Shown: positions 18,348-20,928 of the stretch, in pieces
How the letters are laid out: every line of letters starts with the position of its first letter
How positions within the stretch are numbered: position 1 is the first letter of the stretch
Source: Deltaproteobacteria bacterium
GTDB lineage: Bacteria > Myxococcota > SpSt-1050
NCBI GenBank assembly: GCA_026416535.1
Contig: JAOAFA010000017.1
Coordinates: 1 to 45,904, forward strand
DNA length: 45,904 bases
Reading direction: 5' to 3'
Program-made: the position numbers and the translations under genes
The notes under the pieces: generated by a model
Databases searched by the model: none
What the model was told of the DNA's origin: nothing
What the model saw: the letters and a program-made list of their open reading frames with translations, nothing else

Positions 18348-19517
18348 TTATTGACACACCCCCCCTATACATTTCTCAGGGTAAAAGCAATCTCCACAAC
18401 TACCTCCACATCCATCATGACCACACTCTTTATTATTACAATCAGGTAGACAACATACATTATTATCACATACCTCATCCACTCCACAACAAACTCCACC
18501 ACAACTCAAATACTCGCATTCACATACCCCGTTCGCATTACACCTCTGCAAATCTCCACAACTACCACAAGTCCCACCACACCCATCAGGACCACATTGC
18601 TTCCCAAAACAATTGGGCGTGCAACACGTATTGTTATGACAGACCTGACCCTGATTACAACATGCCCCACCACAACTCAAATACTTGCATTCACATACCC
18701 CGTTCGCATTACACCTCTGCAAATCTCCACAACTACCACAAGTCCCACCACACCCATCAGGACCACATTGCTTCCCAAAACAATTGGGCGTGCAATTTTT
18801 GCACCAACCATTCTCACAACCATTTTCACAAACTATAGTTTCAGAATTGTATTTACATTTAAACTCATTACAACTCCCCTCGCTATAAAAAACAACTAGC
18901 CTTTTATCTGATTCACAGTAGTTCTTCGGAGGATTAGTACACTCACCACAACTCCCTCCACAACCATCGGATCCGCACTCCTTATCCTTACAATCGGGTT
19001 GACACGAAAGACAAGCACCACTACTACATCCATAAAGACAAAATGCGATACTCACCCATTCAAGGCAACCATCACTATTCGAATCCTTACACTCATTTAC
19101 GTATTCCTTTTGGTTTATAGTTTTACATATTTTCACTCCTACTTGTTCGCACTCATTTGTGCAACCAATATCGGAAAAAGCTACATCAGATAGGTCGGAA
19201 GTAACGTCACTTATATATACATCAGGGTTATCTACTATGTCTTCAAAGGTTAAATCCAGATCTTCCAAATCTGTTCTCTCATCCATCAAAACATTATCTT
19301 CCTCTATATCTATTATGCCTACATCTATTATATCATGGTATATGTCCAAAATATCAACCTCAAAGGTATCAATCGTTATGCTATCTCTAATAACATCTAA
19401 TGATATAGTGTCGAGAAGTTGTACATCTTTCTCCTTATCTAATTCAGATGTATCGTGCATACAATATGATGTAAAAATAAAAAGCAACAAAACTAACAGG
19501 TTAGACAACCTATTCAT
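18348..19517 (-). CDS. Cys-rich surface lipoprotein with acidic tether and CGxDGCGGxCGxC repeats
   Basis: This is a 389-residue lipoprotein. The signal peptide ends with a lipobox-like FTSYC (Cys19). A long, very Asp-rich, low-complexity tether (about 20-115) follows, then a Cys-rich region. Four modules of the type CxxxCxxKxCGxDGCGGxCGxC are seen, with intervening C-x5-C-x6-CC units. Two of them are near-identical at the DNA level. Such modules are known from myxobacterial and deltaproteobacterial cell-surface proteins of unknown function and resemble small disulfide-rich folds. Its ATG overlaps the TAA of the TPR gene by 1 nt (TAATG), so translation is coupled. Repeat number may vary among strains. 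Confidence 0.82.
   Translation of the reverse strand: MNRLSNLLVLLLFIFTSYCMHDTSELDKEKDVQLLDTISLDVIRDSITIDTFEVDILDIYHDIIDVGIIDIEEDNVLMDERTDLEDLDLTFEDIVDNPDVYISDVTSDLSDVAFSDIGCTNECEQVGVKICKTINQKEYVNECKDSNSDGCLEWVSIAFCLYGCSSGACLSCQPDCKDKECGSDGCGGSCGECTNPPKNYCESDKRLVVFYSEGSCNEFKCKYNSETIVCENGCENGWCKNCTPNCFGKQCGPDGCGGTCGSCGDLQRCNANGVCECKYLSCGGACCNQGQVCHNNTCCTPNCFGKQCGPDGCGGTCGSCGDLQRCNANGVCECEYLSCGGVCCGVDEVCDNNVCCLPDCNNKECGHDGCGGSCGDCFYPEKCIGGVCQ
18496..18624 (-). repeat. Intragenic tandem repeat, copy 1
   Basis: This 129-bp unit lies inside the Cys-rich lipoprotein gene. It matches 18667-18795 at 171-bp offset (57 codons) with one mismatch (C for T at 18514). Sharing over 128 of 129 bases implies recent duplication or gene conversion. 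Confidence 0.9.
18667..18795 (-). repeat. Intragenic tandem repeat, copy 2
   Basis: This is the second copy of the 129-bp unit, offset by 171 bp. It encodes the same Cys-rich module (NCFGKQCGPDGCGGTCGSC). The in-frame period means gain or loss of a unit keeps the reading frame. Confidence 0.9.
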
Positions 19518-20236
19518 TAAAATTCTCCTGAGAAGGTTAGATAAAATCCATTATTCATCGGAGTTATACTTGTTACATTTCTGATATAATAACCCTTATA
19601 TAGAAAATAAGCTGATGAGCCGAGTAAAATACAACCCGTAACATAACTTACAAGTGAAAGATTGTCGTAAAAATGAATATCATCAATTTTTCTCGCCCTT
19701 GTTTTTTCATCATAATCTTTCTCCCTAACCTCATTATATATTGAGTCAGATTTGAGGTAGAAAACTGGTCCAAGCGCCAAAGAAAGTAAACCTAAAGAAC
19801 CGAGTGAATATCCTATAACTTTATTTGTCAATGCTCGATTCTTTTCTTTATCCCCAACAATAACTCTTTCTGGTGTTCTAATTGCCTCTTTAAGATTATT
19901 TATCAATTCCTCCACCTCGTGTCTATCCTCTGCCTGCGGATTTAATAAAATATACTGTTCATAAAACTTAATTGCATTTGCATAGTCACCAAGTTTATCA
20001 TAACACTTTCCTATATTATACAAGATCTCGGGTCGAGGATACCTCGAATACGCCTTCATAAAAAGTTCTAACGCCTCTGCGTACTTTTCACTTTTATAAA
20101 GTTTTTTTGCCGCCTCAAAGTGAATTTTTGCACTCTCTTTATCTTCATAGCTTTGATCTTTGATCTGAGAATGAAGATCACCTACAAATATTAAACAAAA
20201 GAAGATGGCAAATTTATAAACCAATATATATTTCAT
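19517..20236 (-). CDS. Exported TPR protein with C-terminal membrane segments
   Basis: This is a 239-residue protein. A signal peptide (about 1-23) is followed by two to three TPR motifs (about 35-110: AKKLYKSEKYAEALELFMKA, then LYNIGKCYDKLGDYANAIKF). Two hydrophobic segments follow near 145-165 and 195-217. This myxobacterial-type layout, with a TPR domain ahead of one or two C-terminal membrane helices, suggests a periplasmic protein-interaction module anchored in the inner membrane. Its ATG overlaps the TGA of the PilZ gene by 4 nt, and its TAA overlaps the lipoprotein start, so it is the middle of a coupled set of three. Its partner is unknown. Confidence 0.8.
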   Translation of the reverse strand: MKYILVYKFAIFFCLIFVGDLHSQIKDQSYEDKESAKIHFEAAKKLYKSEKYAEALELFMKAYSRYPRPEILYNIGKCYDKLGDYANAIKFYEQYILLNPQAEDRHEVEELINNLKEAIRTPERVIVGDKEKNRALTNKVIGYSLGSLGLLSLALGPVFYLKSDSIYNEVREKDYDEKTRARKIDDIHFYDNLSLVSYVTGCILLGSSAYFLYKGYYIRNVTSITPMNNGFYLTFSGEF

Positions 20237-20622
20237 TCCAACTTTATGATGCTATTCCCTTTAAAATTTGATATGATGCCAGTAGATTCCAATTGATCGA
20301 CGAAATTAATATACTCCTCAAGAGTCTTCTTTGCCGCCGATGGCACTGCCACAAATAAGATTCCGATTCCACTCTTCTTTTCCTCATCCTCTTTTGCGAT
20401 CCTTGTAATCTCACCTATAATTTTTATCTGCTCTCTCGCTGTTGTACCCGGCAATATAAATGACAGATACACCTTATCTCCTACATTAGGTGTTTCCTTA
20501 ATGTTTATAAAAATTCCACCACTTGACACATCAATTGCCTGAGCCACTCCAGATACCCCGCCTATTGTGTACTTAACTTGGAAGCCAACAGGTATGCGCT
20601 TGAATTTCCTTTTTTCGATCAT
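20233..20622 (-). CDS. PilZ-domain (c-di-GMP binding) protein
   Basis: This is a 129-residue single-domain PilZ protein. The N-terminal RKFKRIPV has the R-x3-R-type c-di-GMP motif, and DVSSGGIF provides the (D/N)-x-S-x2-G motif. The central beta-barrel strands are present, and the C-terminal helix begins near residue 95. PilZ proteins bind c-di-GMP and act on partners in motility, secretion or surface processes. The start is ATG 20622 with GAGGGG 6 nt upstream. Only 18 nt separate the tRNA-Arg CCA end from the ATG, so it is likely on the tRNA transcript. It is first in the PilZ-TPR-lipoprotein set. Confidence 0.88.
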   Translation of the reverse strand: MIEKRKFKRIPVGFQVKYTIGGVSGVAQAIDVSSGGIFINIKETPNVGDKVYLSFILPGTTAREQIKIIGEITRIAKEDEEKKSGIGILFVAVPSAAKKTLEEYINFVDQLESTGIISNFKGNSIIKLE

Positions 20623-20640
20623 ATCAGTCCCCTCGCTATA

Positions 20641-20719
20641 TGGCGCCCCCGACAGGAGTCGAACCTGCGGCTGACAGGGATTAGGAATCCCTCGCTCTAT
20701 CCTACTGAGCTACGGGGGC
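20641..20719 (-). tRNA. tRNA-Arg (anticodon CCT/CCU)
   Basis: Read on the minus strand, this sequence folds as a cloverleaf. The acceptor is GCCCCCG pairing with CGGGGGC, the D-arm stem is GCTC/GAGC, the anticodon stem AGGGA/TCCCT encloses the loop TTCCTAA with anticodon CCT, and the T-arm is GCAGG-TTCGACT-CCTGT. The discriminator is G and the CCA end is encoded (20641-20643). The variable loop has 7 nt (GTCAGCC), 2 more than usual for class I. The anticodon CCU reads AGG. Confidence 0.93.
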
Positions 20720-20731
20720 GCATTAAATCAT

Positions 20732-20760
20732 AAGATAGAGTGAAAATTAGTTTATGTCAA
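20732..20760 (-). promoter_or_regulatory. Strong promoter of tRNA-Arg (and probably of the PilZ gene set)
   Basis: On the minus strand, TTGACA (20760-20755), a 17-bp spacer and TATCTT (20737-20732) form a sigma-70-type promoter. The -10 ends 12 nt before the first tRNA base (20719). No other promoter separates the tRNA from the PilZ gene. Confidence 0.78.
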
Positions 20761-20928
20761 GATTAGTAAGATTAATATTTTTACTTGTTAGAATCCTTCC
20801 CTCCATCATATCTATGATACTTTGGTGGGACCAATTAAGTTCATGATATCATAATTATTCTCAGTCATACCTTAGCTTCCTAGCAATGTGTTAATAAAAT
20901 TAATGAACCTGTAGTGGAGGATTAAATT

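Follow-up and report, generated by a model that had tools for sequence, protein, structure and literature searches.

The analyzed stretch of DNA, here called the window, is 45,904 nt long and comes from a Deltaproteobacteria bacterium (contig JAOAFA010000017.1). Within it, a gene for tRNA-Arg(CCU) lies immediately upstream of a gene for a PilZ-domain protein, which raises the question of whether the two share one transcript and, if so, whether the tRNA has any bearing on the expression of PilZ. The initial annotation placed a promoter, TTGACA-N17-TATCTT, 12 nt before the tRNA, and this was borne out by a promoter scan, in which the motif matches the consensus at 10 of 12 positions and the tRNA begins 12 nt on (Table 1). 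The promoter is credible because the same geometry (a match of at least 10/12, 4–25 nt upstream) is present at 17 of the 43 tRNA genes of the genome that have enough upstream sequence, as against 1.6% of shuffled upstream sequences. The stretch from the upstream tgt gene to the tRNA promoter (20720-20928) has no terminator-like site, and tgt transcripts may enter the unit in this species.

Table 1. Features of the tRNA-Arg(CCU)-PilZ unit in the window, and loci of other tRNA-CDS pairs considered in the text.
Feature	Position or locus	Strand	Remarks
Promoter TTGACA-N17-TATCTT, tRNA-PilZ unit	20732..20760	-	-35 at 20760-20755, -10 at 20737-20732
tRNA-Arg(CCU), anticodon CCT	20641..20719	-	ARAGORN; Rfam RF00005, 60.3 bits; CCA encoded at 20643-20641
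18-nt junction TATAGCGAGGGGACTGAT	20623..20640	-	Shine-Dalgarno GAGGGG at 20634-20629; no terminator, no promoter
Possible hairpin	20620..20642	-	C-A of CCA + UAU (20642-20638) with AUAUG including the start codon (20624-20620); Shine-Dalgarno in loop
PilZ-domain protein, 129 aa	20233..20622	-	ATG at 20622; PF07238, 1.1e-12
TPR protein, 239 aa	19517..20236	-	TPR domain confirmed; signal-like N-terminus; start overlaps PilZ stop, 4 nt
Cys-rich lipoprotein-like protein, 389 aa	18348..19517	-	No Pfam match; start overlaps TPR stop by 1 nt
tRNA-Leu / trigger factor; tRNA-Val / thrS (threonyl/alanyl-type synthetase); tRNA-Trp / secE; tRNA-Arg(ACG) / greA	L047, L054, L058, L060		Gaps of 30-57 nt; kept in genus
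tRNA-Arg(CCG), then stand-alone PilZ gene	G000 contig C1, L062, 2560-2122		Same genome as the window; 29-nt gap
tRNA-Arg(CCG)-PilZ pairs, all loci	L062, L097, L170-L173, L176, L178, L180, L181, L188, L207		Families f1 (two genomes), f2, f14 and f5 (eight genera)

The gap between the tRNA and PilZ had been described as holding only the PilZ Shine-Dalgarno sequence, with neither a terminator nor a second promoter, and the sequence scan agrees. No terminator-like sites were found between positions 19000 and 23500, where shuffled sequence would be expected to give 2.0, and the consensus scan detected no other minus-strand promoter-like site (9/12) in the tRNA or the gap. These absences are informative because the same genome does carry such elements after other tRNA genes; read by eye, tRNA-Met at L051 and L037 is followed by a hairpin plus T-run, and tRNA-Gly at L041 by a separate promoter (TTGACA-TTAAAAT) within the gap. 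As in a mixed operon, the tRNA and the CDS lie on one strand behind one promoter, with an interval free of terminators and promoters. Further downstream, the PilZ, TPR and lipoprotein genes, which were proposed to be coupled, overlap by 4 and 1 nt. The PilZ protein scores 48.5 bits against its Pfam profile (cut-off, 22.5) and is likely to bind c-di-GMP, since it has both motifs of c-di-GMP receptors, RxxxR (RKFKR) and D/NxSxxG (in the DxSxxG form, DVSSGG). PilZ proteins of M. xanthus influence motility and development, and one stand-alone member showed no nucleotide binding in vitro (PMC8316039).

The same-genus comparison was made with G001, the sole other genome of the genus. Alignment shows that its locus (L031) retains the promoter and spacer, the tRNA and the 18-nt gap with its Shine-Dalgarno sequence, followed, as in the window, by PilZ (88% identity), TPR and Cys-rich lipoprotein genes. 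The upstream tgt is missing and the DNA beyond the promoter does not align with that of the window, so the arrangement is conserved in a relative, albeit of the same genus, whose other flank differs. Because conservation sets in at the tRNA promoter while tgt is not kept, the unit starts there; a conserved role for tgt was rejected, as it is absent from this locus in G001. Since the relative keeps the whole anatomy without the upstream tgt, co-transcription of tRNA-Arg(CCU) and PilZ is very likely, and the shared transcript originally proposed is supported, at the level of sequence, by this anatomy and by its conservation in a second species. Beyond the genus the picture changes. In G002, from the same order, no tRNA lies near the PilZ orthologue (45% identity, best in both directions among the compared paralogues), and a further 28 tRNA-Arg(CCU) loci retrieved from the phylum all lack a PilZ gene in their vicinity. 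Separation of the two genes in close relatives had been named as evidence against a shared transcript; they stay together within the genus but not in G002 or at the 28 other loci, and the CCU pair is restricted to the genus, only two species having it.

The best-supported mechanism is promoter sharing, by which PilZ would gain a tRNA-type promoter. Most likely, a single tRNA-type sigma-70 promoter transcribes tRNA-Arg(CCU), pilZ, the TPR gene and the lipoprotein gene as one tRNA-mRNA operon. The 5' end of the tRNA would then be made, presumably by RNase P, and a cut within the 18-nt junction followed by trimming would produce the CCA end. The PilZ mRNA that remains would have a strong Shine-Dalgarno sequence in a leader no longer than 18 nt. 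The main effect would be to pass tRNA transcription, and with it a presumed growth-rate control, on to PilZ and its neighbors. Against a single promoter it can be said that tgt lacks a visible terminator, so that in this species some of the transcription through the unit could originate at tgt.

Co-transcription need not carry any regulatory meaning for PilZ in particular, and the two genes may be adjacent by coincidence, in a genome where tRNA genes sit tightly against their neighbors. About nine of the 44 tRNAs are followed within 60 nt by a same-strand CDS with a Shine-Dalgarno-like site, and six of these units, both PilZ pairs included, recur in G001, which is a minimum number, as only part of the tRNA loci of that genome were fetched. 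In this lineage, units of tRNA and mRNA are commonplace (Table 1), and that of the window is not exceptional. The restriction of the CCU pair to one genus also fits with coincidence, as does the estimate that about 0.13 tRNA-PilZ neighbors would arise by chance (from 17 PilZ domains, 44 tRNAs and roughly 2,900 genes). What a coincidence accommodates less easily is that a single genome has two tRNA-PilZ pairs, both with a tRNA-Arg and both kept in the second species, and that one of them, with tRNA-Arg(CCG), has been retained across four families. On balance, coincidence is possible, if somewhat doubtful.

This second pair, of tRNA-Arg(CCG) and a stand-alone PilZ gene, is also found in G001 (L097), where the gap is 26 nt. 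A profile of the CCG-linked PilZ (A1) was used to search 195 genomes from the phylum, and ARAGORN was run on the 50 best loci; among these 50, tRNA-Arg(CCG) lies directly before an A1-type PilZ in 12 genomes of four families. The gaps are mostly 15–60 nt long (171 nt in L176), and no terminators were seen in them by eye. The surroundings of the tRNA differ between families. In f1 and f2 only 1–8 nt separate it from the stop codon of the gene before it, which encodes Big_7 repeats, and so it has no room for a promoter of its own, while by-eye reading in f5 gives it a promoter-like site, CTTGCA ... TGCTATnAT. Five f5 genomes (L248, L250, L251, L269 and L274) have the order PilZ-tRNA-PilZ on one strand, with the first PilZ gene ending 50–133 nt upstream. 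In f15 and f11 (L278, L279 and L280) the tRNA and PilZ are on one strand and 2.2–3.6 kb apart; at L278 (f15), the genes between them look, by eye, like those for an MlaC-type protein and a TolC-type outer-membrane protein. The tRNA-Arg(CCG) loci examined in f9 mostly have terminator-like hairpins, and no PilZ gene was found at them. In a tree built from few alignment columns for 50 PilZ domains, the tRNA-adjacent members need three changes, a number as low as this being reached in 0 of 500 shuffles, and this would fit a single gain and two losses of tRNA adjacency.

The CCU and CCG pairs most likely arose separately, because the PilZ protein of the window groups with a paralogue (L122) and shares only about 30% identity with the CCG-linked PilZ, outside whose clade it falls. 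Duplication of one tRNA-Arg-PilZ module into both pairs was rejected, as neither PilZ protein is the other's nearest paralogue. That there are two pairs, both with a tRNA-Arg, is suggestive, but once the CCG pair is given, one more would arise by chance with a probability near 0.1. A broader functional coupling of tRNA-Arg and PilZ in the phylum can be imagined, in which an old CCG operon (PilZ-tRNA-PilZ in one family) and an independent CCU operon would both make the output of a c-di-GMP effector depend on tRNA transcription or 3' processing, and we regard this as unlikely. Were such coupling real, a c-di-GMP effector would be tied to growth-rate-controlled tRNA supply, and gene order alone would link lifestyle switching to translation capacity. 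The CCG pair offers a natural test series, with the same PilZ occurring with or without the tRNA, and, in other families, the tRNA occurring with a hairpin that resembles a terminator.

A more specific proposal, that tRNA maturation controls PilZ, can be given a structural form. The CCA-U of the precursor would pair with the PilZ AUG, and the 3' cut, by removing one arm of the hairpin, would permit translation, so that PilZ output would track tRNA processing. The putative stems are CATAT/ATATG in the window (five pairs) and CATTTT/AAAATG in the sister species (six pairs at L031), one pair being altered on both sides in a compensatory manner, and the AUG is predicted to be more open once the tRNA is removed. 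The comparison comprises only two sequences, however, and the pairing is partly forced, CAU being the complement of AUG. The chance of an equally long stem in random gaps is 5% for the window and 2% for L031, which is weak, and the energy of the window stem (-1.8) is average among random 24-mers. Moreover, the CCG pairs of the genus have no encoded CCA, so such a hairpin is impossible there. The modeled folds suggest a statistically weak hypothesis of gating by the hairpin, and a switch of this kind is quite improbable. Sequestration of the Shine-Dalgarno sequence by the acceptor strand (CCCCC with GGGG) was also considered and is absent from the minimum-energy fold. The further idea that PilZ is tied to arginine-codon supply is unsupported because AGG is common, being the second most frequent Arg codon; it accounts for 179 of 561 Arg codons (32%) in the window's long ORFs, not all of which need be genes, and the PilZ gene has two. 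A PilZ transcription start hidden within the tRNA gene, with the tRNA transcript ending by other means (Rho or decay), is very improbable, for although non-sigma-70 promoters escape consensus scans and one of unusual type would go unseen there, the tRNA sequence is constrained, no minus-strand site reaches 9/12 in the tRNA or gap, and a terminator is absent.

Promoter sharing of the kind favored here has precedents. The tufB operon of Salmonella and E. coli (thrU-tyrU-glyT-thrT-tufB) has four tRNAs and tufB behind one promoter (PMC6134099). As in the window, tRNA comes first and is followed by a protein gene under the same promoter, but the downstream product is a translation factor, whereas the window has a single tRNA, an 18-nt gap and a PilZ operon. 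In E. coli, the secG-leuU mRNA and tRNA are in one precursor (Mohanty and Kushner 2008, cited in PMC3985628). The likeness to the window is that mRNA and tRNA share a precursor. The tRNA there is presumably downstream of the mRNA, going by the name of the transcript, which is the reverse of the order in the window. Closer at hand, the secE, thrS, greA and trigger factor units have the same succession of tRNA, Shine-Dalgarno-bearing gap and CDS, and are likewise kept in the genus; they differ in that their genes serve translation, transcription or secretion, whereas PilZ serves signaling. No papers describing a tRNA-PilZ link were found in the open-access literature. A close counterpart is the CCG pair, in which a tRNA-Arg immediately precedes a stand-alone PilZ gene that has its Shine-Dalgarno sequence, across a gap without terminator or promoter. 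It differs in its tRNA, its PilZ subfamily, its lack of an encoded CCA and its conservation in four families, and in this genus 7 nt separate it from a Big_7 gene upstream. The tRNA-mRNA operon is a kind of arrangement already known, and the unusual part is the conserved linkage of tRNA-Arg(CCG) and PilZ.
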